Shown in pieces: positions 7,142-30,101 of a DNA stretch of 64,000 nt. Position numbers and translations under genes: made by a program. The notes below the pieces were generated by a model. That model was not told the origin of the DNA and searched no databases. It saw only the letters and a program-made list of their open reading frames with translations. Every line of letters starts with the position of its first letter. Position 1 is the stretch's first letter. Where the stretch lies: the NCBI RefSeq assembly GCF_002237555.1, contig NZ_CP022540.1, positions 1,240,001 to 1,304,000 on the forward strand, written 5' to 3'. The stretch is from Antarctobacter heliothermus (GTDB taxonomy: Bacteria; Pseudomonadota; Alphaproteobacteria; Rhodobacterales; Rhodobacteraceae).

Positions 7142-7727
7142 GTGGCGGGTGTTTTTTTTGACCCTATCTGCGAGTTGTATTGGTCGCAAGCTGGGTAAAC
7201 TCGCGCGCCTCCATTGAAAATTCGAGTCACCACGATCTCGGCAAATGGGCCATCGCAACCTCCTTTAGAACTGCGTCGTTCCAATAGCGCATGCGGTTTT
7301 GGAGTGCGGTTCATGTTTCCTTGGAACGTGTCTTTCCTTGTTGTGCGGTCCCAAACTTTTGACAGCGTGCGGGACCGCAAGGAATGCGTCTTGCTCTGTC
7401 GGTATGGCGTCCTCGACCGGATTCTCAATTCCTCAGCGCGTTCGCCTCAAATTGACGAAAATTGGATCGTCTGGGACGTATGCTGCTTGCGATTTCTGAT
7501 CGGTGCCAGCTGCAGACTGCTTGCCTGAACCTTGATGTCGGTCATTGTGCGCGGGTCCTTGAAATCGTTTTGCTTATTCCGTTGGCTTTGTCCCTTTTTT
7601 GCAAGGCAAGCCCAACCTGATACATACTAAAGAATGTGGACATGCTGGGTTGGGCTCTGTATGCATACGAAAGAGGGCTGTTCCGTAAGGTTTAGGCAAT
7701 CGATTCTGTACGAGCTGTGATCCGAAA
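7142..7727. other. Long leader region before the first repeat protein
   Basis: No convincing gene is visible. The right part holds an inverted repeat, AGCCCAACC (7609-7617) and GGTTGGGCT (7648-7656). It encloses the GATACATACTAAAG motif that recurs elsewhere in this locus. The stretch is richer in A+T than its surroundings and looks like a regulated promoter/leader region. Confidence 0.5.
7619..7632. promoter_or_regulatory. Locus motif copy 1 (GATACATACTAAAG)
   Basis: This is the first of four copies of a GATACATACTTTAG-like motif in the window, here with TAAAG for TTTAG. It lies 95 nt before the GTG start of the 41-repeat protein, inside the loop of a 9-bp inverted repeat. It is a candidate binding site for the LuxR-type regulator encoded at 21664-22302, which is inference. 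Confidence 0.5.
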
Positions 7728-10700
7728 GTGGACCTTAGAGAAAGGAATGCCCAGTTGGGTGCCAGCAGGGATAAAAACGACTCGACGAGCAAACCGCTCG
7801 CGGTTGAGGGGTCGCAAGATCTGCCTTATCTGGCCCGCGATCGCGATGGCTCTGCTTCCACGCGTGTGGAGTCCGGCCAGTCCGGGATAGCAGCCATCTC
7901 CGGTGCGGTTGGAATGGGTCTGGCCACGCAGAGCGCAACTGCTGAGGGTCAAATTGCTTTGCAGGGCGCTCCCGTTGCGGATGAGGTGCCCCACAAGAAG
8001 GTAGCTCCGCAGTCCGGCTCCAAAGGACCCGACGGTGTCGGGGTCAAGGGTGACGCGGTCGGAGTAGGCGGCCATGATCCGTCGGAGTCGCTGGCAGGGC
8101 CTGATGTTGCGCGTCCTGCGCTGGAAGCTGCCGAGATAACCTCAGATGACACGATCGAGATTGATGTCGGCGCGGGACCTTTTCCATTCGCAGATGTGAG
8201 GGATGAAGACGATCCGACGCCGGTAGACATCGCAAGGGCCGCAGTGGCGGATGCGATCGGCGCGGTTCCTACTTCGAAAGCTCCGCTAGAGGTGGCCGCG
8301 GATGTGCCACCCGTAACCGGTACTGCCGACTTGGATCTCCTAGAAGAAGTTGAGATCGCATCGGTTCAATTGCCTAAAGCCGAACCGAAAACGAGTATCG
8401 AACCCATCGCCGACAAGGCGGACATCGTTGTGGGCGACGATGGCGTTCTGGACACGGTGACCGGTGACGGCGGCATCGTCGACGCGGTTGTCGGCGAAGA
8501 CGGTCTGCTGGACGGAGTTGTTGGCGAGGATGGCCTCGTGGACAGCGTTCTGGACACGGTGACCGGTGATGGCGGCATTGTCGACGCGGTTGTCGGCGAA
8601 GACGGTCTGCTGGACGGAGTTGTGGGCGAGGATGGCCTCGTGGACAGCGTTCTGGACACGGTGACGGGTGACGGCGGCATCGTCGACGCGGTTGTCGGCG
8701 AGGACGGTCTGCTGGACGGAGTTGTTGGCGAGGATGGCCTCGTGGACAGCGTTCTGGACACGGTGACCGGTGATGGCGGCATTGTCGACGCGGTTGTCGG
8801 CGAAGACGGTCTGCTGGACGGAGTTGTTGGCGAGGATGGCCTCGTGGACAGCGTTCTGGACACGGTGACCGGCGACGGCGGCATTGTCGACGCGGTGGTC
8901 GGCGAGGACGGTCTGCTGGACGGAGTTGTTGGCGAGGATGGCCTCGTGGACAGCGTTCTGGACACGGTGACCGGCGACGGCGGCATTGTCGACGCGGTGG
9001 TCGGCGAAGACGGTCTGCTGGACGGAGTCGTTGGCGAGGATGGCCTCGTGGACAGCGTTCTGGACACGGTGACGGGTGACGGCGGCATCGTCGACGCGGT
9101 TGTCGGCGAGGACGGTCTGCTGGACGGAGTTGTTGGCGAGGATGGCCTCGTGGACAGCGTTCTGGACACGGTGACCGGTGATGGCGGCATTGTCGACGCG
9201 GTTGTCGGCGAAGACGGTCTGCTGGACGGAGTCGTTGGCGAGGATGGCCTCGTGGACAGCGTTCTGGACACGGTGACGGGTGACGGCGGCATCGTCGACG
9301 CGGTTGTCGGCGAGGACGGTCTGCTGGACGGAGTTGTTGGCGAGGATGGCCTCGTGGACAGCGTTCTGGACACGGTGACCGGTGATGGCGGCATTGTCGA
9401 CGCGGTTGTCGGCGAAGACGGTCTGCTGGACGGAGTTGTGGGCGAGGATGGCCTCGTGGACAGCGTTCTGGACACGGTGACCGGCGACGGCGGCATTGTC
9501 GACGCGGTTGTCGGCGAGGACGGTCTGCTGGACGGAGTTGTTGGCGAGGATGGCCTCGTGGACAGCGTTCTGGACACGGTGACCGGTGATGGCGGCATTG
9601 TCGACGCGGTTGTCGGCGAAGACGGTCTGCTGGACGGAGTTGTTGGCGAGGATGGCCTCGTGGACAGCGTTCTGGACACGGTGACCGGTGACGGCGGCAT
9701 CGTCGACGCGGTGGTCGGCGAAGACGGTCTGCTGGACGGAGTTGTGGGCGAGGATGGCCTCGTGGACAGCGTTCTGGACACGGTGACCGGTGATGGCGGC
9801 ATTGTCGACGCGGTTGTCGGCGAAGACGGTCTGCTGGACGGAGTTGTGGGCGAGGATGGCCTCGTGGACAGCGTTCTGGACACGGTGACGGGTGACGGCG
9901 GCATCGTCGACGCGGTTGTCGGCGAGGACGGTCTGCTGGACGGAGTTGTTGGCGAGGATGGCCTCGTGGACAGCGTTCTGGACACGGTGACCGGTGATGG
10001 CGGCATTGTCGACGCGGTTGTCGGCGAAGACGGTCTGCTGGACGGAGTTGTTGGCGAGGATGGCCTCGTGGACAGCGTTCTGGACACGGTGACCGGCGAC
10101 GGCGGCATTGTCGACGCGGTGGTCGGCGAGGACGGTCTGCTGGACGGAGTTGTTGGCGAGGATGGCCTCGTGGACAGCGTTCTGGACACGGTGACCGGCG
10201 ACGGCGGCATTGTCGACGCGGTGGTCGGCGAAGACGGTCTGCTGGACGGAGTCGTTGGCGAGGATGGCCTCGTGGACAGCGTTCTGGACACGGTGACGGG
10301 TGACGGCGGCATCGTCGACGCGGTTGTCGGCGAGGACGGTCTGCTGGACGGAGTTGTTGGCGAGGATGGCCTCGTGGACAGCGTTCTGGACACGGTGACC
10401 GGCGACGGCGGCATTGTCGACGCGGTGGTCGGCGAAGACGGTCTGCTGGACGGAGTCGTTGGCGAGGATGGCCTCGTGGACAGCGTTCTGGACACGGTGA
10501 CGGGTGACGGCGGCATCGTCGACGCGGTTGTCGGCGAGGACGGTCTGCTGGACGGAGTTGTTGGCGAGGATGGCCTCGTGGACAGCGTTCTGGACACGGT
10601 GACCGGTGATGGCGGCATTGTCGACGCGGTTGTCGGCGAAGACGGTCTGCTGGACGGAGTCGTTGGCGAGGATGGCCTCGTGGACAGCGTTCTGGACACG

Positions 10701-13286
10701 GTGACGGGTGACGGCGGCATCGTCGACGCGGTTGTCGGCGAGGACGGTCTGCTGGACGGAGTTGTTGGCGAGGATGGCCTCGTGGACAGCGTTCTGGACA
10801 CGGTGACCGGTGATGGCGGCATTGTCGACGCGGTTGTCGGCGAAGACGGTCTGCTGGACGGAGTTGTGGGCGAGGATGGCCTCGTGGACAGCGTTCTGGA
10901 CACGGTGACCGGCGACGGCGGCATTGTCGACGCGGTTGTCGGCGAGGACGGTCTGCTGGACGGAGTTGTTGGCGAGGATGGCCTCGTGGACAGCGTTCTG
11001 GACACGGTGACCGGTGATGGCGGCATTGTCGACGCGGTTGTCGGCGAAGACGGTCTGCTGGACGGAGTTGTTGGCGAGGATGGCCTCGTGGACAGCGTTC
11101 TGGACACGGTGACCGGTGACGGCGGCATCGTCGACGCGGTGGTCGGCGAAGACGGTCTGCTGGACGGAGTTGTGGGCGAGGATGGCCTCGTGGACAGCGT
11201 TCTGGACACGGTGACCGGTGATGGCGGCATTGTCGACGCGGTTGTCGGCGAGGACGGTCTGCTGGACGGAGTTGTTGGCGAGGATGGCCTCGTGGACAGC
11301 GTTCTGGACACGGTGACCGGTGATGGCGGCATTGTCGACGCGGTTGTCGGCGAAGACGGTCTGCTGGACGGAGTTGTTGGCGAGGATGGCCTCGTGGACA
11401 GCGTTCTGGACACGGTGACCGGTGACGGCGGCATCGTCGACGCGGTTGTCGGCGAAGACGGTCTGCTGGACGGAGTTGTTGGCGAGGATGGCCTCGTGGA
11501 CAGCGTTCTGGACACGGTGACCGGTGATGGCGGCATTGTCGACGCGGTGGTCGGCGAAGACGGTCTGCTGGACGGAGTTGTTGGCGAGGATGGCCTCGTG
11601 GACAGCGTTCTGGACACGGTGACCGGTGATGGCGGCATTGTCGACGCGGTTGTCGGCGAAGACGGTCTGCTGGACGGAGTTGTTGGCGAGGATGGCCTCG
11701 TGGACAGCGTTCTGGACACGGTGACCGGCGACGGCGGCATTGTCGACGCGGTGGTCGGCGAGGACGGTCTGCTGGACGGAGTTGTTGGCGAGGATGGCCT
11801 CGTGGACAGCGTTCTGGACACGGTGACCGGTGATGGCGGCATTGTCGACGCGGTTGTCGGCGAAGACGGTCTGCTGGACGGAGTTGTGGGCGAGGATGGC
11901 CTCGTGGACAGCGTTCTGGACACGGTGACCGGCGACGGCGGCATTGTCGACGCGGTGGTCGGCGAGGACGGTCTGCTGGACGGAGTTGTTGGCGAGGATG
12001 GCCTCGTGGACAGCGTTCTGGACACGGTGACCGGTGATGGCGGCATTGTCGACGCGGTTGTCGGCGAAGACGGTCTGCTGGACGGAGTTGTGGGCGAGGA
12101 TGGCCTCGTGGACAGCGTTCTGGACACGGTGACCGGCGACGGCGGCATTGTCGACGCGGTGGTCGGCGAGGACGGTCTGCTGGACGGAGTTGTTGGCGAG
12201 GATGGCCTCGTGGACAGCGTTCTGGACACGGTGACCGGTGATGGCGGCATTGTCGACGCGGTTGTCGGCGAAGACGGTCTGCTGGACGGAGTTGTTGGCG
12301 AGGATGGCCTCGTGGACAGCGTTCTGGACACGGTGACCGGTGATGGCGGCATTGTCGACGCGGTGGTCGGCGAAGACGGTCTGCTGGACGGAGTTGTGGG
12401 CGAGGATGGCCTCGTGGACAGCGTTCTGGACACGGTGACCGGCGACGGCGGCATTGTCGACGCGGTGGTCGGCGAGGACGGTCTGCTGGACGGAGTTGTT
12501 GGCGAGGATGGCCTCGTGGACAGCGTTCTGGACACGGTGACCGGCGACGGCGGCATTGTCGACGCGGTGGTCGGCGAGGACGGTCTGCTGGACGGAGTCG
12601 TTGGCGAGGATGGCCTCGTGGACAGCGTTCTGGACACGGTGACGGGTGACGGCGGCCTTCTGGGCGGTCTTTTGGGCGGCGTGTTGAATACAGTGAAGGG
12701 CGACGGCGGTCCGGTGGACGTGGCTCTGGGCGAGGACGCGCCGCTTGGCGCCGTTGTTGGCAGCGACACGGTCGAGACCTCAGTTGTGGACGACATCGAA
12801 AGTGTCGATGACGAAGGTTTTGTCGATACGCTGATCGCCTCTGACGGTGAAGAGGATATCCTTACCGGGTTGGTCGGGGACGATGACGTTTATGGAATAG
12901 ATGTAGCGCCGGACCCCGTGGACAACGTAGACGACCTTTCGGCAGGCCTGCCTTGGCGGGGCGGATCGCTGGTCGATCAGGGTCTTCTGTCCGACACTGT
13001 CGCAACGGACGATGAAATCGACGGTCTGCTGAATGAGATCCTTGGCAGCGCGGTAGATGGCGATGTTTTGAGCAGCGGGCCGGGGACTTTCGACTTGCTG
13101 GTTGAGGAAACGGACCTTCCCGGGGATGCTATGGTCGACACCGGCGATTCCAGTCTACTGGGTGATACTGCGATCGACGATGCGATGTCGTCGTTGTTCG
13201 ACACTGGCGAAAGCTTGCTTGGTGGTGGTTTGCTGGGCGGCGGATTGCTTGGCGGATTGTCGTCGCCGGATGACGAGAATGCCTAG
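7728..13286 (+). CDS. Giant acidic repeat protein (41 x 34 residues), probable type I secreted adhesin
   Basis: This is an 1852-residue protein without a signal peptide. Residues 1-239 are non-repetitive, with an Ala/Gly-rich patch near 52-66. Residues 240-1633 are 41 tandem copies of one 34-residue unit made of three sub-units: GDGGIVDAVV, GEDGLLDGVV and GEDGLVDSVLDTVT. In the translation every copy is identical. The C-terminal ~219 residues are acidic and end LLGGGLLGGLSS-PDDENA, resembling the end of the second repeat protein (LLGGLSGDSSEEFS). Unlike that protein it lacks the BapA-like prefix domain. A complete type I secretion system follows. I infer a secreted surface or matrix protein, with Ca2+ binding by the many Asp possible. 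The start is uncertain: GTG 7728 has a weak ribosome site, while TTG 7755 has AAAGGAA at 7741-7747. Confidence 0.82.
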   Translation: MDLRERNAQLGASRDKNDSTSKPLAVEGSQDLPYLARDRDGSASTRVESGQSGIAAISGAVGMGLATQSATAEGQIALQGAPVADEVPHKKVAPQSGSKGPDGVGVKGDAVGVGGHDPSESLAGPDVARPALEAAEITSDDTIEIDVGAGPFPFADVRDEDDPTPVDIARAAVADAIGAVPTSKAPLEVAADVPPVTGTADLDLLEEVEIASVQLPKAEPKTSIEPIADKADIVVGDDGVLDTVTGDGGIVDAVVGEDGLLDGVVGEDGLVDSVLDTVTGDGGIVDAVVGEDGLLDGVVGEDGLVDSVLDTVTGDGGIVDAVVGEDGLLDGVVGEDGLVDSVLDTVTGDGGIVDAVVGEDGLLDGVVGEDGLVDSVLDTVTGDGGIVDAVVGEDGLLDGVVGEDGLVDSVLDTVTGDGGIVDAVVGEDGLLDGVVGEDGLVDSVLDTVTGDGGIVDAVVGEDGLLDGVVGEDGLVDSVLDTVTGDGGIVDAVVGEDGLLDGVVGEDGLVDSVLDTVTGDGGIVDAVVGEDGLLDGVVGEDGLVDSVLDTVTGDGGIVDAVVGEDGLLDGVVGEDGLVDSVLDTVTGDGGIVDAVVGEDGLLDGVVGEDGLVDSVLDTVTGDGGIVDAVVGEDGLLDGVVGEDGLVDSVLDTVTGDGGIVDAVVGEDGLLDGVVGEDGLVDSVLDTVTGDGGIVDAVVGEDGLLDGVVGEDGLVDSVLDTVTGDGGIVDAVVGEDGLLDGVVGEDGLVDSVLDTVTGDGGIVDAVVGEDGLLDGVVGEDGLVDSVLDTVTGDGGIVDAVVGEDGLLDGVVGEDGLVDSVLDTVTGDGGIVDAVVGEDGLLDGVVGEDGLVDSVLDTVTGDGGIVDAVVGEDGLLDGVVGEDGLVDSVLDTVTGDGGIVDAVVGEDGLLDGVVGEDGLVDSVLDTVTGDGGIVDAVVGEDGLLDGVVGEDGLVDSVLDTVTGDGGIVDAVVGEDGLLDGVVGEDGLVDSVLDTVTGDGGIVDAVVGEDGLLDGVVGEDGLVDSVLDTVTGDGGIVDAVVGEDGLLDGVVGEDGLVDSVLDTVTGDGGIVDAVVGEDGLLDGVVGEDGLVDSVLDTVTGDGGIVDAVVGEDGLLDGVVGEDGLVDSVLDTVTGDGGIVDAVVGEDGLLDGVVGEDGLVDSVLDTVTGDGGIVDAVVGEDGLLDGVVGEDGLVDSVLDTVTGDGGIVDAVVGEDGLLDGVVGEDGLVDSVLDTVTGDGGIVDAVVGEDGLLDGVVGEDGLVDSVLDTVTGDGGIVDAVVGEDGLLDGVVGEDGLVDSVLDTVTGDGGIVDAVVGEDGLLDGVVGEDGLVDSVLDTVTGDGGIVDAVVGEDGLLDGVVGEDGLVDSVLDTVTGDGGIVDAVVGEDGLLDGVVGEDGLVDSVLDTVTGDGGIVDAVVGEDGLLDGVVGEDGLVDSVLDTVTGDGGIVDAVVGEDGLLDGVVGEDGLVDSVLDTVTGDGGIVDAVVGEDGLLDGVVGEDGLVDSVLDTVTGDGGIVDAVVGEDGLLDGVVGEDGLVDSVLDTVTGDGGIVDAVVGEDGLLDGVVGEDGLVDSVLDTVTGDGGIVDAVVGEDGLLDGVVGEDGLVDSVLDTVTGDGGIVDAVVGEDGLLDGVVGEDGLVDSVLDTVTGDGGLLGGLLGGVLNTVKGDGGPVDVALGEDAPLGAVVGSDTVETSVVDDIESVDDEGFVDTLIASDGEEDILTGLVGDDDVYGIDVAPDPVDNVDDLSAGLPWRGGSLVDQGLLSDTVATDDEIDGLLNEILGSAVDGDVLSSGPGTFDLLVEETDLPGDAMVDTGDSSLLGDTAIDDAMSSLFDTGESLLGGGLLGGGLLGGLSSPDDENA
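8445..12626 (+). repeat. 41 exact-period tandem repeats of 102 bp
   Basis: The stretch is 4182 bp, exactly 41 x 102 bp with no length change, followed by a partial 42nd copy (VLDTVTGDGG) at 12627-12656. Differences between copies fall at third positions, for example GGT/GGC, GAA/GAG, GTT/GTC/GTG and ACC/ACG, so the protein is unchanged. Blocks of variants recur in the same order, which suggests duplication of multi-copy segments. Copy number may be unreliable if the assembly used short reads. Confidence 0.95.
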
Positions 13287-13292
13287 AACCGG

Positions 13293-13317
13293 TGCCCAGC
13301 AGTCAGTTTGCTGGGCA
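13293..13317 (+). terminator. Hairpin after the 41-repeat protein
   Basis: TGCCCAGCA (13293-13301) and TGCTGGGCA (13309-13317) form a perfect 9-bp stem with a 7-nt loop, just after the stop at 13284-13286. There is no T tract, so it could be a weak terminator or an mRNA-end structure. Confidence 0.55.
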
Positions 13318-13514
13318 ACATGTGAATATTATGCAACTTTTAGGCGTAGATGTTTACAAGGGGGCTTGCAGCAAATAGTTCTATCGCGAACCATCCGTAA
13401 GCACGGGACGAAATTCGAACCAGAACGATCTAGAGGTGTGTAAACTTTGTTCTTTTTCGATGAGTTCCCGACTGGCCCTGACGTGATAGGTCTTGTTTCG
13501 TAGGGAGTGGCTGA

Positions 13515-14324
13515 ATGTCTATCGAGCTGTCCGTGCGCGGAATAGGGCAAGATCAATCGCAATCGCTGGTTGTCGACACTGGAATTGCATTGTCGCGCGC
13601 GACAGAGATCACGCTCCCTACGGGTACTCCCGCCATTGTCCGGCATGAGAAGTTTGGTCGCGATCTTGCTGTTCAGTTCGAAGATGGACAAACGCTGCGC
13701 ATCGAGAATTTCTTCGTTATGGATCCCGAGGGCGAGTTCAGCCGGTTCCTAGATGAGGACGGGGGTACGAAAGTCACAGGACTGATCGCTCCCGAACCCT
13801 CGATGGAAGACATGGGCGATGGGATCGAAGCGGATCCTGCTGGCGGGAGCGAAGGGGGTGACGCCACGCCGCAACACGCATTTGTGCCCGGCGCGGGCGA
13901 CGATGGCGGTGGCGGATTTTTCGGCGAAAGCTCGACGATCCTTAGCGCCGGAGCGGGGCTGGCCGCGGGGTACGGCTCGATGAGTCTATTGTCTTCTGAA
14001 GGAGATGATGGCGATAGCGAAAGCCGCAGCGCGTCGACCGCAGCCGCAGTTCCAAGCGATGACGACGCCGGTTTGTTAGAGCAAGACCTAGAGGCGCTTC
14101 TGGGTGCACCGGCGGCCGAGGATGACCTGATGCTCGCCTTGGCAGCCGAACTCGAGAGCGCGGCTTTTGTCGACGACGCCCTAGGTGCGCCCGGTGATTT
14201 GGTCGCTCCCCTGCTAGATGGCGGCTTGGCCGGGCCGTTATTTGCAGAAACCTCTCCGATGCCGATCGAGATGCACGCCGAATCTGATCTGCTTCTGCCT
14301 CTGACCGCCGAAGGTGACACATGA
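13515..14324 (+). CDS. BapA-prefix-like acidic protein encoded with the type I secretion system
   Basis: This is a 269-residue, strongly acidic protein without a signal peptide. Residues about 40-95 (IVRHEKFGRDLAVQFEDGQTL, then RIENFFV) resemble the prefix domain of Bap/LapF-type adhesins, also present in the repeat protein at 25404-28766. A Gly/Ala hydrophobic stretch follows (ILSAGAGLAAGYGSMSLLS, about 142-160), then an acidic tail. It looks like an adhesin N-terminus without the repeats. AGGGAG (13502-13507) precedes ATG 13515. Its stop overlaps the start of the TolC-like gene (ATGA), so it is the first gene of the secretion operon. It may be a small type I substrate, an accessory or retention protein, or a regulator of export; none of these is established. 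Confidence 0.7.
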   Translation: MSIELSVRGIGQDQSQSLVVDTGIALSRATEITLPTGTPAIVRHEKFGRDLAVQFEDGQTLRIENFFVMDPEGEFSRFLDEDGGTKVTGLIAPEPSMEDMGDGIEADPAGGSEGGDATPQHAFVPGAGDDGGGGFFGESSTILSAGAGLAAGYGSMSLLSSEGDDGDSESRSASTAAAVPSDDDAGLLEQDLEALLGAPAAEDDLMLALAAELESAAFVDDALGAPGDLVAPLLDGGLAGPLFAETSPMPIEMHAESDLLLPLTAEGDT

Positions 14325-15607: not shown

Positions 15608-15638
15608 GGGGCAAAATGTTGCGCGGGAAAGACCAAAC

Positions 15639-21607: not shown

Positions 21608-21621
21608 GATACATACTTTAG
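21608..21621. promoter_or_regulatory. Locus motif copy 2 (GATACATACTTTAG)
   Basis: This is the consensus form of the four-copy motif. It lies 67 nt upstream of the glycosyltransferase start at 21540 (reverse strand) and 42 nt after the end of the response-regulator gene. It is a candidate operator/promoter element for the glycosyltransferase. Confidence 0.55.
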
Positions 21622-21663
21622 GTGGTGGTTTCTCGTGTCGATCACTTCCGGTGCACCGGTGGA

Positions 21664-22302
21664 TCAGATCATATTCATGTCCCGGGCGACGATCACGGCT
21701 TGGGTCCGGTTGCTGGCCTCCAGCTTTGTACAGACCGCTTTGACATGCATCTTGACCGTCGCTTCCTTGAGGCCAAGCGCTGTACCTATGTCACGGTTTG
21801 ATTTGCCCTCAGACAGTTCAGCAAGCACGTCCATCTCTCTTTCTGACAGAGGGACGTTCACGTGATCCTTAGGGACAACGCGTTTACGCTCGATCAGCTC
21901 GACCGGGATATAACGTTCTCCCGCAGCCATAAAGCGCACTTCATTATAAAAGCTGCGCAGAGACGTTGTTTTCAACACGAACCCAGCACCGCCCATGTCT
22001 AGCACTTCGGGCACGAGATGGGCGGGTGGATTACTGGTCAGCAGTGCAACCGGCTTTCCGCCGTTCCGCGCGATTGCCTCGCGCATGCCATCAAGACCGT
22101 TCATGCCGGGCATGTTGAGATCGACGAGCACGAGATCGAAGGCGCCTTGGCTGTCGATAATATCCAGCGCGGTATTAAGGTCCGGAGCCGTCATCGCGGT
22201 CACGTCAGGAACGCCGGAGATGAATTGCTCGAACATCTCCAGCACCATCGCGTGATCGTCCGCGATCAGGATTCTGATCGGTGCGGTTTCCTCTGAGACC
22301 AT
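21664..22302 (-). CDS. LuxR/NarL-type response regulator
   Basis: This is a 212-residue two-component regulator. The N-terminal receiver has the acidic pair D15-D16, the phosphoacceptor D61 in VLVDLNMPG, T89 and K111. The C-terminal LuxR-type helix-turn-helix (about 148-210) reads LSEREMDVLAELSEGKSNRD, then IGTALGLKEATVKMHVKAV. It lies next to a hybrid histidine kinase on the same strand (147-bp gap), its likely partner. It is a natural candidate for recognising the GATACATACTTTAG motif around this locus, which has not been shown. Confidence 0.92.
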   Translation of the reverse strand: MVSEETAPIRILIADDHAMVLEMFEQFISGVPDVTAMTAPDLNTALDIIDSQGAFDLVLVDLNMPGMNGLDGMREAIARNGGKPVALLTSNPPAHLVPEVLDMGGAGFVLKTTSLRSFYNEVRFMAAGERYIPVELIERKRVVPKDHVNVPLSEREMDVLAELSEGKSNRDIGTALGLKEATVKMHVKAVCTKLEASNRTQAVIVARDMNMI

Positions 22303-22449
22303 TTCTCTACTTTCGTACTCTGGCGGCGTTCTGCGTGCCTCCCAATCATACGGTGGGCGGCACGACGGTCGCGTTTACGTTCGTCAGGTAGGTAGGGCAA
22401 TACTGCCCGAGTCACGCCTATACAGGAAGTGTACACTGCGGACCTCACG

Positions 22450-24498
22450 TCAACTGGTTTGTGGCTCGGTTCCCAGCGCCTTGATGGCCTTGGCTGTGCG
22501 GGTCAGCGCATCGGTCACGGTTGCGATTTCTTCAGATAGGTCGGTCTTGCCCGACTTCACCGCATCCTCCAGAACACGCATGCGCGTGTCTAAAAGGGCC
22601 AGTCCAGTCAGGCCGCAAGCGCCGGTTGCAGCATGCATCGTGCAGTCGATCCGGTCGGTCACCCCATTACATTTCAGGCTGACCAACGCGGTGCTGGCTT
22701 CCCCCAGGGCACGTGACATGAATTTCCGAGCCCCTTCTGGCCCTAGGCCAGAGACAAGTTCCGTTACCACACTGTCGTTGAGTACCGCACCTTCTTGTCG
22801 CGGCGGCTTCGCGGCCTTGGTCTTCTTCGACACCTTGGCGGGTGGGGGCGACGTGGGAGGCATAGGGGCGGGTATCGTCGGCGCATCCAAAGCCTCTCGG
22901 GCCGCGTGGCACAGCGGCCCGGGTCGAATCGGTTTTTCCAACACGCGCTGCATTCCTGCCTGAAGACACGCATCCTGGATACGCTCGTCGATATGCGCCG
23001 TCAGGCCCAAAACGCGGGGGGCGGGGTTGATGCTGCCTGACGCAATACCCGATGCAATGCGTCGCGCCAGTTCGACACCGCTCATCTGCGGTAGGGTGAC
23101 GTCGGACAGGACAAGGTCGATGCCGCGCCCCGTCGGATTCTCTAAGACGCTAAGCGCAGCTTTACCGCTGCCAGCGACCTGAACCTCGGCCCCGGCGGCT
23201 TGCAAGACGTGGCTCAGCCACGCTTGGCTTGCAGGGCTGTCCTCGACCACCAAAAGGGTCTTGCCGCGTAGCAGTCCGTCGGTGTCCTGCGGCATTGTTT
23301 CGATTGCGGCTGTCTCGGACGTTTCGGCGGCTGGCAGGCTGAACACCGCCCGTAGGATGGTGCCCACGACCTCTTCGCCCTCAGAAACGGCTCGCTCGCC
23401 GTCTGCGCCGCGGTCCAACAGGCTCAGATGCCCGCCAAGTTGCGTCAACGCGTGGGCTAGGACATTCATGCCGCCAGAGGGGCGTTTCTGTGCCTCTTGT
23501 GGCGCGGGTGACGTGACGCTGCCGCCCTGACCAAGCGCTTGGCGCAGCCGGTCCTTCTGATTCTCAGGAAGGCCGCCGCCCTGATCGCGAACCTCAAGCG
23601 TGATTTCCAGACGCGATTCCTTGGCCCGCAGGTCATCTATCCCGGCGCGCAGCGGTGCCACGGTCAAGGCGACCTCGACCGCCGCGCCGCCGTGTTTGAC
23701 GGCATTATCGATCATGTTCTGAAACAGTGCGCGGACGAACCGCACGGGACCAATAACGCGCGTATCTGAGTCCTCGGGCAATGAAAGCGTCATGGATACA
23801 TTGCGACGGTCGGCGATGGGATGGATGATGTCGATCAGTTGGCCAAGCTCATCCTTCAGCGAAAAAACCTCGTCCCGGCGGGCCGCTGCTGCGCTTTGTT
23901 CGCCGCGGATCACTGCGAGGACATTGCTGATGTGATCCAGCGAAAGGTCCGCCACTCTGCGCAGCCGATCTAGGGCGTCGTCCCCGCGGTCCTGTTGCTG
24001 GAGCAATATCTCGGCACTGGCAAGAAGGGATTGAATAGGCGTGCGCAGGTCATGCGTAACGCGCAAAAGCGTCGCCGCGCGCGCCCGGTTCCGTAGCCAC
24101 AGCGCCTCGTCATCGGTTTCGGAGAGACGCAAATAATAGCCCGAGGCGGGCCCCAGCGGTAAAAGCACCAACTCGCCTTCAAGGGCGACCCCTTCAATAG
24201 AGACGGAAACAGATGCGCTTCCGGCGCGTTTCACAACAGTGCAGAGATCGGGCCAATCGAGGTGTTTCCGCAAGTCCCGATCAAGGCCAAGCCGCTTGGC
24301 CGGGGCGTTTGCCAGCAGGACTTCGCCGGCCTCGTTGGCCAAGAGGACGGCGCGCCGGTCTGACGCGATCAAACGGGCCACCGTCTGCAGGACCGGGCGA
24401 TAGGATGCGTGAACTCCATCGACAGCCTTCGCGGGTTTCGGTCCTTGATCGATGCCCGCCTCGGGCGTTTCGCCGTTTTCATTTCCTGGTGTGCTCAA
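22450..24498 (-). CDS. Hybrid sensor histidine kinase with receiver and HPt-like domain
   Basis: This is a 682-residue cytoplasmic hybrid kinase without transmembrane helices. In order: a PAS-like sensor (about 35-130), HisKA with phospho-His H149 in RVTHDLRTP, HATPase (N-box FQNMIDNAVKHGG, then RDQGGGLPE), a receiver with D466 in LVLSDVTLP, a proline/lysine-rich linker and a C-terminal HPt-like bundle with H622 in MHAATGACG. I place the start at TTG 24498 because GGAGGA (24505-24510 on this strand) lies 6 nt upstream. An ATG at 24687 has no ribosome site and would add 63 residues lacking domain similarity. A multi-step phosphorelay to the neighbouring LuxR-type regulator is likely. Confidence 0.86.
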   Translation of the reverse strand: MSTPGNENGETPEAGIDQGPKPAKAVDGVHASYRPVLQTVARLIASDRRAVLLANEAGEVLLANAPAKRLGLDRDLRKHLDWPDLCTVVKRAGSASVSVSIEGVALEGELVLLPLGPASGYYLRLSETDDEALWLRNRARAATLLRVTHDLRTPIQSLLASAEILLQQQDRGDDALDRLRRVADLSLDHISNVLAVIRGEQSAAAARRDEVFSLKDELGQLIDIIHPIADRRNVSMTLSLPEDSDTRVIGPVRFVRALFQNMIDNAVKHGGAAVEVALTVAPLRAGIDDLRAKESRLEITLEVRDQGGGLPENQKDRLRQALGQGGSVTSPAPQEAQKRPSGGMNVLAHALTQLGGHLSLLDRGADGERAVSEGEEVVGTILRAVFSLPAAETSETAAIETMPQDTDGLLRGKTLLVVEDSPASQAWLSHVLQAAGAEVQVAGSGKAALSVLENPTGRGIDLVLSDVTLPQMSGVELARRIASGIASGSINPAPRVLGLTAHIDERIQDACLQAGMQRVLEKPIRPGPLCHAAREALDAPTIPAPMPPTSPPPAKVSKKTKAAKPPRQEGAVLNDSVVTELVSGLGPEGARKFMSRALGEASTALVSLKCNGVTDRIDCTMHAATGACGLTGLALLDTRMRVLEDAVKSGKTDLSEEIATVTDALTRTAKAIKALGTEPQTS

Positions 24499-24697
24499 GC
24501 CGGTTCCTCCGCTCTGCGCGTGGCCACCCGGTGACGGCACCGGGGTGTCCCGGTGGCGCACGGCGTGGTGGCGGCAGGTCAAACAAGCCGCGTTGCCTGC
24601 AGGTACAGCCAGAGCGGGTAGCGCCGAAACGACTTCATGTACAGGAAAATTACGCCTTGGACATGCGCCCGGTGAGAATATAGCCATTTGTGTGACA

Positions 24698-24711
24698 TTT
24701 ACATACTTAAG
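24698..24711. promoter_or_regulatory. Locus motif copy 3 (TTTACATACTTAAG)
   Basis: This is the most diverged copy, keeping TACATACTT-AG. It lies about 200 nt upstream of the kinase TTG start (reverse strand). That suggests a long kinase leader or autoregulation of the two-component system. Confidence 0.42.
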
Positions 24712-25307
24712 TTTGTCTTTTGATGTGTGCTCGGCACCCTGGCTGGCGCTCAGGTGAACGGGTTGGCCACACTATTTGCGTCGCGGTCGGGCGCGGGGGC
24801 GTACTTCCCATCGTTCCGACGACGTGGCTCGCCAACCGCCGGGCGGCAAGGCGGTGGTGTTCGGAACGGCCTCGGGCGAGTCGAATCGCGAGCCGGAAGT
24901 CCATACGCTGACAGCCTCGGTATGGCCGCCGACACATCGGCCGACTTGAAGAATGTCGATTGCACGTCTCCCTGTACGCACCTGACGAGTCGGGTCCATA
25001 TAAGCAGCTGTCAAATAAGTATATTGTCTTGATCAGGGTGCTGAGGCTGACAGCCTGTTTGAGTCAGTGACCGACAACGATAGCGCCCTCAGTTTCTTTA
25101 GTTGGGGCCCAAAGGACGCATTGCAACGTGACTGGTTTGGATTGTTCAGCTGGATACGGGGTCGGGCACGACACAGCTCTGGGCCGAGGGCGACGCGTAG
25201 CGGTAGCCAGTTCGACGCCGATGTGACGGGTGAAACCGGCAAACCGAAGTGATGCGTCCAAAATCAGAAACAGATAATTTCACCGGACAGCTCTCGTGGA
25301 GGTTGAC

Positions 25308-25321
25308 GATACATACTTTAG
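25308..25321. promoter_or_regulatory. Locus motif copy 4 (GATACATACTTTAG)
   Basis: This copy is identical to copy 2. It ends 82 nt before the ATG of the second repeat protein, similar to the 95 nt seen for copy 1. It directly overlaps the last base of a TTGACG hexamer. Confidence 0.55.
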
Positions 25322-25403
25322 AGTGTTCATTACCGACTAAAGGCGACTCTTGCGCTTTCTAACATGTGCGCCGTGGCGCGCAAACGGGACAGAGGAAAGA
25401 ACA

Positions 25404-28400
25404 ATGGCTGACAGCGTGATCCAGACCGGGTCTGAAATTGCAATTCGAATTGATGCAGATCGGGCGGATATCTCGCGCTTTCTGCGGCAGGGAGACGATT
25501 TGGTCGTCGAATTGCGCAATGGCGACCGGATTATCGTGCAGGGATATCATGTCCCTCACGAAAGCGGTTCCCTGCACAGCCTCGTCTTTGGCGACACTGT
25601 AGTGACGGACGTTGAGATTGAAGAGGGTGGCGCGGGTCTTGGCTTGAACATGGAAGACGGACTGGCACTTGCTGCAGCGGGTGTAAGCGGTCTGGGCCTG
25701 GCTCTCAGCGGCGGTGGTGACGGTGATAGCGACGGTGACCCGACCGATTTTACTGACTTCACGGACCCGACCGATGGCACGGACCCGACCGATGGCACGG
25801 ACCCGACTGACGGTACAGACCCGACTGACGGCACGGACCCGACTGACGGTACAGACCCGACCGATGGCACGGACCCGACCGATGGCACGGACCCGACCGA
25901 TGGCACGGACCCGACCGATGGCACGGACCCGACCGATGGCACGGACCCGACCGATGGCACGGACCCGACCGATGGCACGGACCCGACCGATGGCACGGAC
26001 CCGACCGATGGCACGGACCCGACCGACGGTACAGACCCGACCGATGGCACGGACCCGACCAACGGTACAGACCCGACCGATGGCACGGACCCGACCGACG
26101 GTACAGACCCGACCGACGGTACAGACCCGACCGATGGCACGGACCCGACCGATGGCACGGACCCGACTGACGGTACGGACCCGACTGACGGTACGGACCC
26201 GACCGATGGCACGGACCCGACTGACGGTACGGACCCGACTGACGGTACGGACCCGACTGACGGTACGGACCCGACTGACGGTACGGACCCGACCGATGGC
26301 ACGGACCCGACCGACGGTACAGACCCGACCGACGGTACAGACCCGACCGATGGTACGGACCCGACTGACGGTACGGACCCGACTGACGGTACGGACCCGA
26401 CTGACGGTACGGACCCGACCGATGGTACGGACCCGACCGATGGTACGGACCCGACCGACGGTACGGACCCGACTGACGGTACGGACCCGACTGACGGTAC
26501 GGACCCGACCGATGGTACGGACCCGACCGATGGTACGGACCCGACTGACGGTACGGACCCGACCGACGGTACAGACCCGACTGACGGTACGGACCCGACC
26601 GACGGTACAGACCCGACCGACGGTACGGACCCGACCGACGGTACAGACCCGACCGACGGTACAGACCCGACCGACGGTACAGACCCGACCGACGGTACAG
26701 ACCCGACCGACGGTACAGACCCGACCGATGGCACGGACCCGACCGATGGCACGGACCCGACTGACGGTACGGACCCGACTGACGGTACGGACCCGACCGA
26801 TGGTACGGACCCGACTGACGGTACAGACCCGACTGACGGTACGGACCCTGCTGGCGAGCAAGGTTTCCTGGATCCGATCATTGGCGATGAGGGCTTGCTT
26901 GGCGACCTGACCGGCAATGACGGCCTGCTGGGAGATGTCACCGGATCCGACGGCCTGCTGGGCGATCTTGTCGGCTCGGACGGTGCGCTTGGCGACCTTG
27001 GGGAAGACCTCTTGGGTCAGCCAATACTGGGCGACGGAACTGTATCGGAAGACATCGGCCTGCTTGATGGCATCATCGCTGATGAGGGCTTGCTTGGCGA
27101 TGTAACCGGCAACGACGGTCTGCTTGGCGACATCACCGGATCGGATGGTCTGCTGGGTGATCTGGTCGGCAACGACGGAGTGTTGTCCGACATTACCGGA
27201 AGCGACGGCCTTGTCGGCTCCCTGACCGGGACTGGTGTGCTAGGAGACGATACGGTCACCGGTGACGACGGCGGCCTGACCGACGGCTTGCTGGGAGAAG
27301 ACGGCCTTGTGGGCGGTCTGCTCGGTGGAGACGGAGGCCTGCTCGATGGTGTGATCGCGGACGGTGGTCTGCTCGGCGATGTGACCGGCAACGATGGCTT
27401 GCTTGGAGACGTCACCGGTTCGGATGGCCTGGTCGGCGATCTGGTCGGCGATGACGGTCTGCTGGCAGATGTGACTGGCAGCGACGGGCTTGTCGGCTCT
27501 CTGACCGGAGGCGGTCTGCTGGGTGACGGAGGTGATCTGACTGACGGACTGCTGGGCGACGATGGCCTGGTCGGTGGTCTGCTGGGTGATGACGGCCTGG
27601 TTGGCGGTCTGCTCGGTGGCGGCGATGGCCTGACCGATGGTCTGCTGGGTGAGGACGGCCTGGTTGGCGGTCTGCTCGGTGGCGAGGATGGCCTGACCGA
27701 TGGCTTGCTGGGTGATGACGGCCTGGTTGGCGGTCTGCTCGGCGGCGGCGATGGCCTGACCGATGGTCTGCTGGGTGAGGACGGCCTGGTTGGCGGTCTG
27801 CTCGGCGGCGGCGATGGCTTGACCGACGGTCTGCTGGGTGAGGACGGCCTTGTAGGTGGTCTGCTCGGCGGCGGCGATGGCCTGACCGACGGTCTGCTGG
27901 GTGAGGACGGCTTGGTTGGCGGTCTGCTCGGTGGCGAGGATGGCCTGACTGACGGCTTGCTGGGTGACGATGGCCTGGTTGGCGGTCTGCTCGGTGGCGA
28001 GGATGGCCTGGCCGACGGCTTGCTGGGTGAGGACGGCCTTGTAGGTGGTCTGCTCGGCGGCGGCGATGGCCTGACCGACGGTCTGCTGGGTGAGGACGGC
28101 CTTGTAGGTGGTCTGCTCGGCGGCGGCGATGGCCTGACCGACGGACTGCTGGGTGAGGACGGCCTGGTTGGCGGTCTGCTCGGTGGCGAGGATGGCCTGG
28201 CCGACGGCTTGCTGGGTGAGGACGGCCTTGTAGGTGGTCTGCTCGGCGGCGGCGATGGCCTGACCGACGGTCTGCTGGGTGAGGACGGCCTTGTAGGTGG
28301 TCTGCTCGGCGGCGGCGATGGCCTGACCGACGGACTGCTGGGTGAGGACGGCCTGGTTGGCGGTCTGCTCGGTGGCGAGGATGGCCTGGCCGACGGCTTG

Positions 28401-28766
28401 CTGGGTGAGGACGGCCTGGTTGGCGGTCTGCTCGGCGGCGGCGATGGCCTGACCGACGGTCTGCTGGGTGAGGACGGCCTGGTTGGCGGTCTGCTGGGTG
28501 AGGACGGCCTTGTAGGTGGTCTGCTCGGCGGCGGCGATGGCCTGACCGATGGTCTGCTGGGAGAAGACGGCCTGGTTGGCGGTCTGCTCGGCGGCGGCGA
28601 TGGCCTGACCGACGGTCTGCTGGGTGACGAAGGCTTGGTTGGCGGTCTGCTCGGTGGCGAGGATGGCCTGACCGATGGCTTGCTGGGTGACGATGGCCTG
28701 GTTGGCGGTCTTGTGGGTGGCCTGCTTGGTGGCCTGTCCGGCGATAGTTCTGAGGAGTTCAGCTAA
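25404..28766 (+). CDS. BapA-prefix repeat protein (60 x TDPTDG plus 17 x 21 residues), probable type I secreted adhesin
   Basis: This is an 1120-residue acidic protein without a signal peptide. Residues 1-75 are a BapA/LapF prefix-like domain (ISRFLRQGDDLVVELRNGD, then RIIVQGYHV). A Gly/Ala hydrophobic stretch (LALAAAGVSGLGLALSGGG, 87-105) follows, as in other Bap-type N-termini. Residues 120-479 are 60 copies of TDPTDG, one being TDPTNG. Residues 480-737 are degenerate 10-residue units such as TGNDGLLGDV. Residues 738-1104 are 17 copies of a 21-residue unit, and the end is LLGGLSGDSSEEFS. ATG 25404 has GAGGAAAG at 25392-25399; an upstream TTG at 25350 is less likely. The nearby type I system and the ending shared with the first repeat protein suggest co-export. 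Confidence 0.85.
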   Translation: MADSVIQTGSEIAIRIDADRADISRFLRQGDDLVVELRNGDRIIVQGYHVPHESGSLHSLVFGDTVVTDVEIEEGGAGLGLNMEDGLALAAAGVSGLGLALSGGGDGDSDGDPTDFTDFTDPTDGTDPTDGTDPTDGTDPTDGTDPTDGTDPTDGTDPTDGTDPTDGTDPTDGTDPTDGTDPTDGTDPTDGTDPTDGTDPTDGTDPTDGTDPTDGTDPTNGTDPTDGTDPTDGTDPTDGTDPTDGTDPTDGTDPTDGTDPTDGTDPTDGTDPTDGTDPTDGTDPTDGTDPTDGTDPTDGTDPTDGTDPTDGTDPTDGTDPTDGTDPTDGTDPTDGTDPTDGTDPTDGTDPTDGTDPTDGTDPTDGTDPTDGTDPTDGTDPTDGTDPTDGTDPTDGTDPTDGTDPTDGTDPTDGTDPTDGTDPTDGTDPTDGTDPTDGTDPTDGTDPTDGTDPTDGTDPTDGTDPTDGTDPTDGTDPTDGTDPAGEQGFLDPIIGDEGLLGDLTGNDGLLGDVTGSDGLLGDLVGSDGALGDLGEDLLGQPILGDGTVSEDIGLLDGIIADEGLLGDVTGNDGLLGDITGSDGLLGDLVGNDGVLSDITGSDGLVGSLTGTGVLGDDTVTGDDGGLTDGLLGEDGLVGGLLGGDGGLLDGVIADGGLLGDVTGNDGLLGDVTGSDGLVGDLVGDDGLLADVTGSDGLVGSLTGGGLLGDGGDLTDGLLGDDGLVGGLLGDDGLVGGLLGGGDGLTDGLLGEDGLVGGLLGGEDGLTDGLLGDDGLVGGLLGGGDGLTDGLLGEDGLVGGLLGGGDGLTDGLLGEDGLVGGLLGGGDGLTDGLLGEDGLVGGLLGGEDGLTDGLLGDDGLVGGLLGGEDGLADGLLGEDGLVGGLLGGGDGLTDGLLGEDGLVGGLLGGGDGLTDGLLGEDGLVGGLLGGEDGLADGLLGEDGLVGGLLGGGDGLTDGLLGEDGLVGGLLGGGDGLTDGLLGEDGLVGGLLGGEDGLADGLLGEDGLVGGLLGGGDGLTDGLLGEDGLVGGLLGEDGLVGGLLGGGDGLTDGLLGEDGLVGGLLGGGDGLTDGLLGDEGLVGGLLGGEDGLTDGLLGDDGLVGGLVGGLLGGLSGDSSEEFS
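25761..26840 (+). repeat. 60 tandem copies of an 18-bp unit (TDPTDG)
   Basis: The stretch is 1080 bp, exactly 60 x 18 bp, followed by a diverged TDPAGE. One copy near 26050-26060 encodes TDPTNG. Codons vary synonymously (GGC/GGT, ACG/ACA, ACC/ACT, GAT/GAC). The region is hydrophilic, with regularly spaced Asp, Thr and Pro. It resembles an extended stalk, possibly glycosylated or ion-binding. Confidence 0.95.
26868..27614 (+). repeat. Degenerate ~30-bp repeats encoding GLLGD-type decapeptides
   Basis: Units such as GNDGLLGDVT and GSDGLLGDLV recur with about 10-residue period and are more diverged than the flanking arrays. They share the G-x-D-G-L-[LV] core with the first repeat protein, indicating common ancestry. 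Confidence 0.8.
27615..28715 (+). repeat. 17 copies of a 63-bp (21-residue) unit
   Basis: Units read GG[GE]DGL[TA]DGLLG[ED] followed by DGLVGGLL. One extra 10-residue half unit is inserted after copy 14. Variants alternate G/E at position 3 and T/A at position 7 in a recurring order, suggesting block duplication. Confidence 0.9.
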
Positions 28767-28831
28767 CCCACTCACGGATGTTGAACTCCCGGCCTGTCCC
28801 GACCCCCAATACCCCCAGATGGGGCAGGCAT

Positions 28832-28862
28832 CCGGACAGGGCAAACTTTTTGCCCTGTCCGG
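28832..28862 (+). terminator. Strong hairpin after the second repeat protein
   Basis: A perfect 14-bp stem, CCGGACAGGGCAAA (28832-28845) and TTTGCCCTGTCCGG (28849-28862), has a 3-nt loop and begins 66 nt after the stop. No T tract follows, so it may end, slow or protect the transcript. It separates the adhesin from the response-regulator gene. Confidence 0.65.
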
Positions 28863-28902
28863 GACAACTCCCAACGCGTGCAACCAATGATAGGAGCCGG
28901 AC

Positions 28903-29895
28903 ATGAGAATTCTCGCGGTAGACGACAGTCCCATTTCCCGAGACTTGATACCTATGATTTTCGCGACTTCCGGTTTCCCACCCGTTCACGTTGCCGAAAG
29001 TGGCCATATGGCCTTGTCCATCCTCAGCAACGGGGATGAGCAATTCGATTGTCTCGTTCTGGATATCGAAATGCCGGAAATGGACGGGATAGAACTGTGC
29101 GCCCGTATCCGGAGGCTGCCACGCTATCGTGACACGCCCATTATCATGCTTACGGCCCGCGACGACGCTGACACCATCGAAGCCGCCTTTGCCGCCGGAG
29201 CAAATGACTACATTTTCAAACGCTCTACCGCGAAAGACTTGGTCGGGCGCGTACACGTCGCAAAGCGGATGTTGCACCGCAATGACTGCATGGTATTGCA
29301 GAACATGGACCGCGATCACGGCCCTCAGGCCCGATCCCTCCGCTCTGGCCGCCACAAGTTCGCTCTTTCGGACAGTCTTTTGGTGGAGGGTGTCGAAAGA
29401 CTGATCCTTCCGTTCTCGCTAGGTAACTACCTGACGCAGCTGCCCAGCGAGGCCTTGTCGGACGTCCGCCTCTTTGGCGTCCAGATCGAGGATCCAATCC
29501 GTCATTACTACGACAATACAACACCGGATTTTGTCGACATCCTTGAACGGTGCGCTGGCGGAATTCGGGCGACCGTAAACACCGAGCGCCTGTTGATGGC
29601 ATACCAAGGGAACGGGGCTTTTTATTGCATCGCACGCAATATCGACCCGGGTTATCCGCCGGAGCTGGAAGCAGGCATAAACAGCTACCTCGAAACCTGC
29701 GAGAATGCGAGCGCACTCGCGGCGTTGCAATCCGTGAGGGTTTGCGTCGGAACGCCGATCACCCCCAATGCACGACGTGGACAACGTGTGCGCCTGTCCT
29801 TCGATCGTGTGCAAGAGCGTATGGATGCTCGGACCAAGATAGGCGCTACAATACAGCCGCTTCAATCAGAACAGGAGACTGCAGGATGGCGATAA
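28903..29895 (+). CDS. Response regulator with degenerate GGDEF-like output domain
   Basis: This is a 330-residue protein. The receiver (1-122) has D7/D8, phosphoacceptor D54 in LVLDIEMPEMDG, T84 and K106 in IFKRST. The output region (about 160-315) has no HTH. Its layout resembles a diguanylate cyclase fold: LLMAYQGNGAFYCIARN at 231-246 sits where the GGDEF signature would be (here GNGAF), and the tail SVRVCVGTP plus RLSFDRVQERMDARTK matches the usual end. Active-site acidic residues are missing, so no cyclase activity is expected. A degenerate c-di-GMP sensor or a protein-interaction domain is possible. The GGDEF assignment is tentative. Confidence 0.75.
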   Translation: MRILAVDDSPISRDLIPMIFATSGFPPVHVAESGHMALSILSNGDEQFDCLVLDIEMPEMDGIELCARIRRLPRYRDTPIIMLTARDDADTIEAAFAAGANDYIFKRSTAKDLVGRVHVAKRMLHRNDCMVLQNMDRDHGPQARSLRSGRHKFALSDSLLVEGVERLILPFSLGNYLTQLPSEALSDVRLFGVQIEDPIRHYYDNTTPDFVDILERCAGGIRATVNTERLLMAYQGNGAFYCIARNIDPGYPPELEAGINSYLETCENASALAALQSVRVCVGTPITPNARRGQRVRLSFDRVQERMDARTKIGATIQPLQSEQETAGWR

Positions 29896-30101
29896 TCATT
29901 TATATGCTCAGTAGCTTCATCGGCTTGTTCGCCGCCATCGTCGGGTATGTGTTTTTTGGACTAAATTTTGCAGATGCCTTTCTGGTCTATAGCGCCGGTT
30001 CTATCGCATTGGGAACTCTGATTGTTTCGGGCAGTCTCTTGCTGGGTGAGACGCCACATTCAAGTGCTCATGACCACCGAAAAAGGCAGACGACTTCCTG
30101 A
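29886..30101 (+). CDS. Small two-helix membrane protein
   Basis: This is a 71-residue protein that starts inside the end of the response-regulator gene (10-nt overlap), with AGGAG about 10 nt before ATG 29886. Two hydrophobic helices (about 3-22 and 29-52) are followed by a short polar, His-rich tail (HSSAHDHRKRQ). I recognise no family. Its coupling to the regulator suggests it works with it, perhaps as a membrane partner. Confidence 0.65.
   Translation: MAIIIYMLSSFIGLFAAIVGYVFFGLNFADAFLVYSAGSIALGTLIVSGSLLLGETPHSSAHDHRKRQTTS

Follow-up and report, generated by a model that had tools for sequence, protein, structure and literature searches.

A probable self-contained adhesin system with its own type I exporter and phosphorelay on a genomic island of Antarctobacter heliothermus

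A 64,000-bp stretch of the Antarctobacter heliothermus genome (the window; bases 1,240,001-1,304,000 of contig 1, NZ_CP022540.1) carries a gene cluster that is likely to represent a self-contained, horizontally transferred adhesin system with its own exporter and phosphorelay switch. The genome comprises 5.33 Mb in four contigs, with a completeness rating of 100 percent. Between 7.7 and 30.1 kb of the window the genes encode, in this order, the giant acidic repeat protein REP1, a 269-residue protein resembling the BapA prefix domain, the TolC-family, ABC and HlyD components of a type I exporter, and an Omp85 protein; these are followed, on the opposite strand, by a glycosyltransferase, a NarL-type response regulator and a hybrid histidine kinase. 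A second giant repeat protein (REP2), a protein with a receiver (REC) domain and a degenerate GGDEF domain, and a small membrane protein close the cluster.

An earlier interpretation made from the letters alone (the sequence-only reading) had named the repeat proteins, type I exporter, Omp85 protein, glycosyltransferase, kinase, regulator and REC/GGDEF protein; all were found in the order that it gave, and its overall observation is thereby confirmed. Likewise, no unrelated-looking gene was seen to interrupt the cluster between 7.6 and 30.1 kb. It had delimited the locus at 7142-30101: the gene set stands, while the left limit has to be moved, the first repeat gene opening near 7728 with GTG and bases 7142-7727 being intergenic and containing control site 1. 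No description of the cluster was found in a search of the open literature, nor in the portions available to us of PMC5588039, PMC13235738, PMC4104836 and PMC7419079, to which portions all statements below citing these papers refer.

Conservation and mobility of the cluster

An alignment of 40 Omp85 homologues was used to scan the genome collection, and 80 of 200 confirmed loci were compared: 48 family loci at 38-77% identity and, as a control, 32 loci at 25-30% identity whose genes look like BamA. Loci were chosen by the Omp85 gene and the counts therefore describe Omp85-bearing loci only; the 48 are not independent (L024 and L026 come from one strain and have identical stretches, and some further pairs resemble each other closely), and some gene absences are due to contig ends. 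The family loci contain genes for TolC (44 of 48), the ABC protein (45), HlyD (45), the regulator (40), the kinase (38) and a prefix adhesin (35), and, less regularly, the 269-residue protein (24), the REP1 C-terminus (24), the glycosyltransferase (19) and the REC/GGDEF protein (4). Every cluster gene scores zero in the 32 control loci. Hosts include Roseivivax, Salipiger, Sulfitobacter, Celeribacter, Roseovarius, Paracoccus and Tritonibacter; REP1 is undercounted by the blast criterion, as P. versutus has one that was missed (by eye). The co-occurrence check in other Rhodobacterales proposed by the sequence-only reading was thus run: independent scattering of the genes was not seen, and the set is syntenic in most of the 48 loci, across many genera.

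The Omp85 gene is rare (4/196 genomes of the order and 7/394 of the family, this genome included in both counts) and occurs on plasmids of six genera, in five of which its context was viewed. On one Sulfitobacter plasmid the cluster is split in two: a stretch of about 12 kb with other genes separates the exporter and Omp85 from the glycosyltransferase, regulator, kinase and adhesin. One locus (L016, JAFKDC010000027.1) comes from a record titled Enemella evansiae, by its name presumably an actinobacterium; it contains a Rhodobacterales contig and is probably a mislabelled assembly.

The Omp85 gene is absent from all five congeners examined. Left-flank homology to all five stops at or within 6 bases of position 7110, the end of a tRNA-Pro gene, and two of them present an empty site, in which the tRNA-Pro lies about 100 bp from the homologue of window position 37866 onward. 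Among the remaining congeners, one has a different insert at the tRNA and in two the contigs end too early. These borders define the window from 7111 to about 37870 as a genomic island. No direct repeat of the tRNA end was found at the far border in the island border search, and no integrase was noticed in the window, where no search aimed at integrases was made. In one congener (G494) an integrase-like gene (by eye; L121 1430-2620) lies directly 3' of the same tRNA-Pro, which makes this tRNA look like an integration hot spot. The cluster appears to be horizontally mobile and common to scattered marine and soil Rhodobacterales. The right-hand part of the island contains, besides the flavin monooxygenase and sigma54 activator genes, fragments of resistance-nodulation-division (RND) efflux genes (HlyD-like and AcrB-like, in different frames; 30302-33360), the remains of a decayed operon.

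A conserved control site

The sequence-only reading had linked four transcription units by a shared DNA motif. This motif is present before REP1, the glycosyltransferase, the kinase and REP2, and is longer than first described: a 16-bp inverted repeat, ACATACT-WW-AGTATGT, with NarL-like 7-2-7 geometry. The four copies are the sole positions in the window with at least 11 of 14 matches, the threshold also applied to the other loci.

In total, 95 sites were detected in the 897 kb of the 48 family loci, where Markov-simulated sequence would yield 4.8 and the reversed pattern occurs nine times; the 32 control loci (592 kb) contain 4 sites and 4 of the reversed pattern. The 2-bp spacing is preferred, the other spacers from 0 to 10 bp yielding 7-30 sites each, and so is the inverted orientation (95 inverted, 25 direct and 17 everted). 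The central pair, left unspecified, is A/T-A/T in 84 of 92 sites. Nearly all sites (92 of 95) lie outside conserved coding matches, with three inside, and at least one is present in 42 of the 48 loci, including 38 of the 40 that have the regulator. Assignment by blast placed 31 before REP2, 25 of them at 46-102 bp upstream of the extrapolated start, four before the kinase, two before REP1, and one each before the 269-residue protein, TolC and the regulator genes. The evidence for an operator is local enrichment, preference for one spacer and one orientation, and linkage to the regulator. NarL sites consist of two 7-base elements forming an inverted repeat with a 2-bp spacer (PMC7419079); the site shares this geometry, as borne out by the spacer and orientation controls, and has as its own features the half-site ACATACT and targets dedicated to the locus.

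When up to two mismatches are allowed, ACATACTWWAGNRTGT occurs at seven places in the 5.33-Mb genome, four of them here, including all three at 0-1 mismatch. Outside this genome, 11 of 195 sampled genomes have a near-perfect site, in four of them within 10 kb of a regulator homologue (p about 3e-6 under a guessed 1% chance per genome): one of the four is a related locus with Omp85, two come from a single genus and lie beside flagellar genes, and one is a polysaccharide locus. In L104 (6409-10334) and L105 (5984-9895), from another genus, the palindrome lies between a hybrid kinase and a regulator gene, with flagellar genes adjoining (by eye), and the switch module seems, judging from this gene order, to be reused there for motility. 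L106 (4678-14279) encodes a regulator homologue and a protein like those with repeats in toxin (RTX), the palindrome standing ahead of polysaccharide genes and 9 kb away from the regulator (by eye). A receiver-like protein of about 190-200 residues is encoded at or near the glycosyltransferase position in L029 (11837-12442), L037 (11872-12441) and L040 (13104-13679); in L029 and L037 the palindrome lies about 300 bp upstream of its gene.

Table 1. Features of the cluster and its genomic island (positions in the window)
Feature	Position	Strand	Basis or remark
tRNA-Pro (CGG), left island border	7034..7110	+	ARAGORN
Genomic island (~30.7 kb): cluster, broken RND efflux genes, flavin monooxygenase, sigma54 activator	7111..37870		congener comparison
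Control site 1, ACATACTAAAGAATGT	7622..7637		~90 bp upstream of REP1
REP1, giant acidic repeat protein, 1852 aa, net charge -442, conserved C-terminal region	7728..13286	+	GTG start
REP1 tandem array, 41 copies of a 102-bp / 34-aa unit	8490..12671	+	repeat analysis
Short BapA-prefix-like protein, 269 aa, without repeats	13515..14324	+	PF22783 E 3.5e-5, below cut-off
TolC-family outer membrane protein of type I exporter	14321..15607	+	PF02321 strong; TIGR01844 below cut-off
Type I secretion permease/ATPase, LssB type	15639..17774	+	TIGR03375 808 bits, cut-off 693.1
HlyD-type membrane fusion protein	17771..18943	+	TIGR01843 316.9 bits, cut-off 208.65
Omp85 protein: probable signal peptide, one POTRA-like domain, Omp85 barrel	18990..20300	+	PF01103
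Soluble GT4 glycosyltransferase, 418 aa, likely ATG at 21540	20284..21540	-	PF12000, PF00534
Control site 2, ACATACTTTAGGTGGT	21611..21626		~70 bp upstream of glycosyltransferase start
NarL-type response regulator (REC-GerE), conserved phospho-Asp 61	21664..22302	-	Pfam domains
Soluble hybrid histidine kinase, REC + probable HPt	22450..24498	-	PF00512 (below cut-off), PF02518, PF00072
Control site 3, ACATACTTAAGTTTGT	24701..24716		~200 bp upstream of likely kinase start
Control site 4, ACATACTTTAGAGTGT	25311..25326		78-93 bp upstream of REP2 ATG
REP2, BapA-prefix adhesin, 1120 aa, linker then GLLG-type repeats	25404..28766	+	NF033677
REC domain + degenerate GGDEF-like C-terminus	28903..29895	+	PF00072; GGDEF relation by eye
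Small membrane protein, 71 aa	29886..30101	+	probable; within open frame 29550-30101

The exporter and the Omp85 protein

The ABC permease/ATPase, the HlyD adaptor and the TolC-like protein are encoded together and constitute a type I secretion system. The adjoining Omp85 protein was modelled with AlphaFold (predicted local distance difference test, pLDDT, 85; predicted template modelling score, pTM, 0.74) as a signal-like helix, one POTRA-like domain and a barrel with 15 strands of at least three residues and a short low-confidence C-terminal strand. Omp85 barrels have 16 strands. The closest folds are BamA and TamA, and the best matches in PDB are BamA structures, including the one-POTRA BamA 4c4v. 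Residues Cys51 and Cys70 are invariant across the 40 aligned sequences, and the 95 homologues listed among the scored, best-sharing candidates (376-470 residues, 40-100% identity, the window's own included) are separate from the BamA-length matches. The protein thus combines a POTRA domain with an Omp85 barrel and is not BamA itself; the short Omp85 protein coexists with BamA, for example in L034 and L092 and in L052 and L072 (in both cases two loci of a single strain). BamA-like proteins with one to three POTRA domains are a described subfamily, thought to aid membrane protein assembly (PMC4104836). The present protein resembles them in domain composition and in occurring alongside BamA, and differs in its single POTRA domain with an invariant cysteine pair and its tight linkage to a type I exporter. 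This close link is a new element.

Could the Omp85 protein, the glycosyltransferase or both be hitch-hiking neighbours with no role in adhesin export or modification? The glycosyltransferase gene is missing from 29 of the 48 loci, and the presence of Tad-pilus-type genes (secretin, TadE/G) between exporter and Omp85 in some lineages (L040 5487-9740, L132 8282-15686, L054 7451-8758) indicates that insertion is tolerated. The exporter, however, accompanies Omp85 in 45 of the 48 loci, Omp85 remains part of the cluster in many genera and on plasmids, and the glycosyltransferase seems to have its own operator, a site of at least 9/14 matches lying within 160 bp in 14 of 19 loci (reversed control, 1/19). 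Hitch-hiking is accordingly considered unlikely, though it is the strongest of the alternatives.

Glycosyltransferase and adhesin linkers

The glycosyltransferase contains no strongly hydrophobic stretch in its sequence. It resembles Sdg glycosyltransferases weakly, with a match (E 0.02-0.04) far below the cut-off.

The prefix adhesins of the family have the prefix domain and GLLG repeats in common and vary in the type of linker: DPTDGT/DPT/DGT/DST, (DA)n, (DP/EP)n, (GGD)n or (DG)n. Linkers were scored in 37 rows from the 48 loci and the window, after 12 loci without a scorable large prefix adhesin had been left out. A threonine linker is present in at least one adhesin in all 20 rows that contain the glycosyltransferase (the window plus 19 loci) and in 4/17 without it (Fisher p 7e-7). 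The four exceptions are L035, L053, L058 and L061, L035 being doubtful by eye; L039, with a TGDTGG linker, was scored as having none, and L025, which has the enzyme, encodes a (DA)n protein alongside threonine-linker proteins. Four further plasmid loci, in which a gene annotated as a glycosyltransferase occupies the corresponding position, agree, giving 24/24; these enzymes were matched by annotation and position, and three of the four come from genera already scored or their near kin.

The co-occurrence of glycosyltransferase and threonine-rich linkers is no more than suggestive, because the hypothesis and the scoring rule were derived from the same data and a tree of the exporter ATPase (quick method) contains only five changes of the enzyme, with 2.5 independent pairs pointing the same way and none the opposite (p 0.25). 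A tentative explanation, which we hold to be possible rather than probable, is that the enzyme O-glycosylates the threonine-rich (DPTDGT)n linker in the cytoplasm before export, enzyme and linker being gained and lost together and the clades without the enzyme using threonine-poor (Asp-Ala)n, (Asp/Glu-Pro)n or (Asp-Gly)n linkers. If true, the Bap system would here exist in a dedicated glyco-adhesin version whose parts are co-regulated.

Giant repeat proteins and relation to Bap and Lap systems

REP2 passes the cut-offs for the BapA prefix domain (NF033677, 36.9 bits against 35; PF22783, 40.8 against 27). Its linker (25764-26843) comprises 60 DPT(D/N)GT hexapeptides, after which GLLG-type repeats follow, and its net charge is -268 (computed on a 1138-aa frame). 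The 269-residue protein reaches 23.9 of 27 bits with PF22783 and 23.5 of 35 with NF033677, both under the curated cut-offs. The single prefix-domain protein of the sequence-only reading therefore survives as a BapA-prefix-like protein of sub-threshold score, and the second giant protein itself has a prefix domain. No BapA prefix domain was matched in REP1. Its 34-residue units are contiguous; at the DNA level 12 of the 41 share one sequence, and the most divergent unit departs from the commonest at 10 of 102 positions. This near-identity suggests that unequal exchange took place recently. In locus L025 a single open frame contains both a prefix domain and the REP1 C-terminus, together with a (DA)n linker, which supports REP1 as a member of the same adhesin set. 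The AlphaFold model of the repeat fold has a pLDDT of 62 and a pTM of 0.27, the prefix domain alone being confident, and a Foldseek search with the repeat-protein model gave no match at E 0.001 or better.

The closest kind of system, by description, is that of BapA in Paracoccus denitrificans. BapA contains 891 Asp-Ala repeats, mutants in BapA or its exporter are severely biofilm-deficient, and biofilm formation is stimulated by calcium (PMC5588039). Common to BapA/BapBCD and the present cluster is a type I exporter adjoining a giant, extremely acidic, low-complexity repeat protein, and the (DA)n linkers of several REP2 relatives tie the family to BapA. Unlike the P. denitrificans system as described (PMC5588039), the cluster has two repeat proteins and a short prefix-like protein, and additionally a one-POTRA Omp85 protein, a glycosyltransferase, a kinase/regulator pair and an operator. 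New relative to the known Bap system are thus the operator and phosphorelay, the one-POTRA Omp85 protein, and the glycosyltransferase co-occurring with threonine-rich linkers.

The sequence-only reading had proposed one biofilm or surface-layer system. One system is supported, and "biofilm" follows by analogy from P. denitrificans BapA (PMC5588039); a surface layer has no specific support. Alternatively, the repeat proteins that this exporter and switch serve could make up a surface layer or a calcium-binding, mineral-nucleating polyanion coat, as would suit their extreme acidity (net charges of REP1 and REP2 given above) and lack of a recognised adhesive domain, mineral nucleation being discussed for BapA as well (PMC5588039). 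The prefix domain and the relatives with Asp-Ala linkers nevertheless point to the Bap kind, and protein length and linker sequence vary strongly among loci, unlike those of a lattice protein; such a coat is therefore rated as improbable.

The prefix adhesins share with BapA/LapA-type adhesins the N-terminal BapA prefix domain and the LssB-type exporter. BapA/LapA-type adhesins are controlled by LapG and LapD. Control by LapG was rejected here, as no LapG gene (PF06035) was matched in the genome at E 0.001, while 1 of 14 control genomes gave a match; adhesin release, if any, probably takes another route. In contrast to BapA/LapA systems, control of the cluster appears to be transcriptional, via the local phosphorelay.

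Nor is the cluster the cell's sole adhesin route: a third BapA_N protein (1565 aa) with apparent type I exporter genes of its own (by eye) is encoded at about 1.624 Mb (L101 4262-13766, G000:C1). The genome is also very rich in RTX repeats, with 160 matches to PF00353 and one 2898-aa open frame on contig 4; among the genome matches listed, none of these nonapeptide repeats lies in the window.

Kinase, regulator and accessory proteins

The "LuxR-type regulator" of the sequence-only reading does carry a GerE domain; it is, more precisely, a REC-GerE response regulator of the NarL type and not a quorum sensor. Its homologues (E 1e-40) occur in 97 of the 196 Rhodobacterales genomes, against four for the Omp85 gene. 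The kinase probably starts at a TTG (24498) behind GGAGG, giving a 682-aa form; the longest open frame opens at 24687. A TorS-like alignment, below cut-off, reaches the end of its C-terminus, where a probable HPt domain (His622 of the 682-aa form) was read by eye, with no Pfam match. The REC/GGDEF protein is a lineage-specific accessory (4/48 loci). The open frame at 29550-30101 probably encodes a membrane protein of 71 aa, with its start at 29886.

That another regulator, such as a related NarL-family protein, binds the palindrome while the local pair controls other genes is a slim prospect: a second regulator, 42% identical, is encoded in the genome and binding by the cluster's own is predicted, but the site accompanies the regulator in nearly all loci that have it and lies near regulator homologues in flagellar and polysaccharide loci elsewhere.

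Proposed mechanism

On the preferred explanation, a self-contained adhesin system, the soluble hybrid kinase would sense a cytoplasmic cue and phosphorylate the NarL-type regulator by a His-Asp-His-Asp relay. The phosphorylated regulator, as a dimer, would bind the 16-bp 7-2-7 repeat (ACATACTWWAGTATGT) before REP1, REP2, the kinase and the glycosyltransferase, switching adhesins and circuit on together. The TolC/LssB/HlyD exporter would secrete REP2 and probably REP1, the DPTDGT-linker threonines perhaps being decorated by the glycosyltransferase beforehand, and the one-POTRA Omp85 protein most likely helps to insert the outer membrane protein or proteins of the system or to present the adhesins. 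The adhesins may then remain at the surface or close to it, where they would mediate adhesion dependent on calcium in the manner of P. denitrificans BapA.

Several observations weigh against this explanation. Export, adhesion and DNA binding of the cluster products are predictions from sequence. REP1 matches no recognised domain in Pfam or in curated family models, and the likeness to P. denitrificans BapA consists of descriptions and of linker similarity in relatives. The exporter order is TolC-ABC-HlyD, as against ABC protein, fusion protein and outer membrane protein in P. denitrificans (by gene numbers; PMC5588039). The TolC operon has no control site in the window, and 52 of the 95 sites have no conserved gene start within 700 bp by the blast criterion, many of these preceding REP1-type genes by eye (unscored). 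Four of the eight loci without a regulator in view have a site, three of the four at contig ends. Genome-wide enrichment of the palindrome was rejected as proof: the reversed control is commoner both across the 196 genomes (27, against 12 with a near-perfect site, this one included; table count) and in the own genome, where it outnumbers ACATACTWWAGNRTGT in total strand matches by 18 to 11.

Significance

The analysis turns a loose gene list into a testable unit consisting of an export machine, giant acidic adhesins, a dedicated phosphorelay and one DNA site. It provides a system in which to ask by what means large acidic proteins stay at the surface when LapG is missing, which function a one-POTRA Omp85 protein performs next to a type I exporter, and whether one low-complexity linker can replace another or must fit the glycosyltransferase. 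It also predicts a binding site for the regulator homologues that are encoded in flagellar and polysaccharide loci of other Rhodobacterales.

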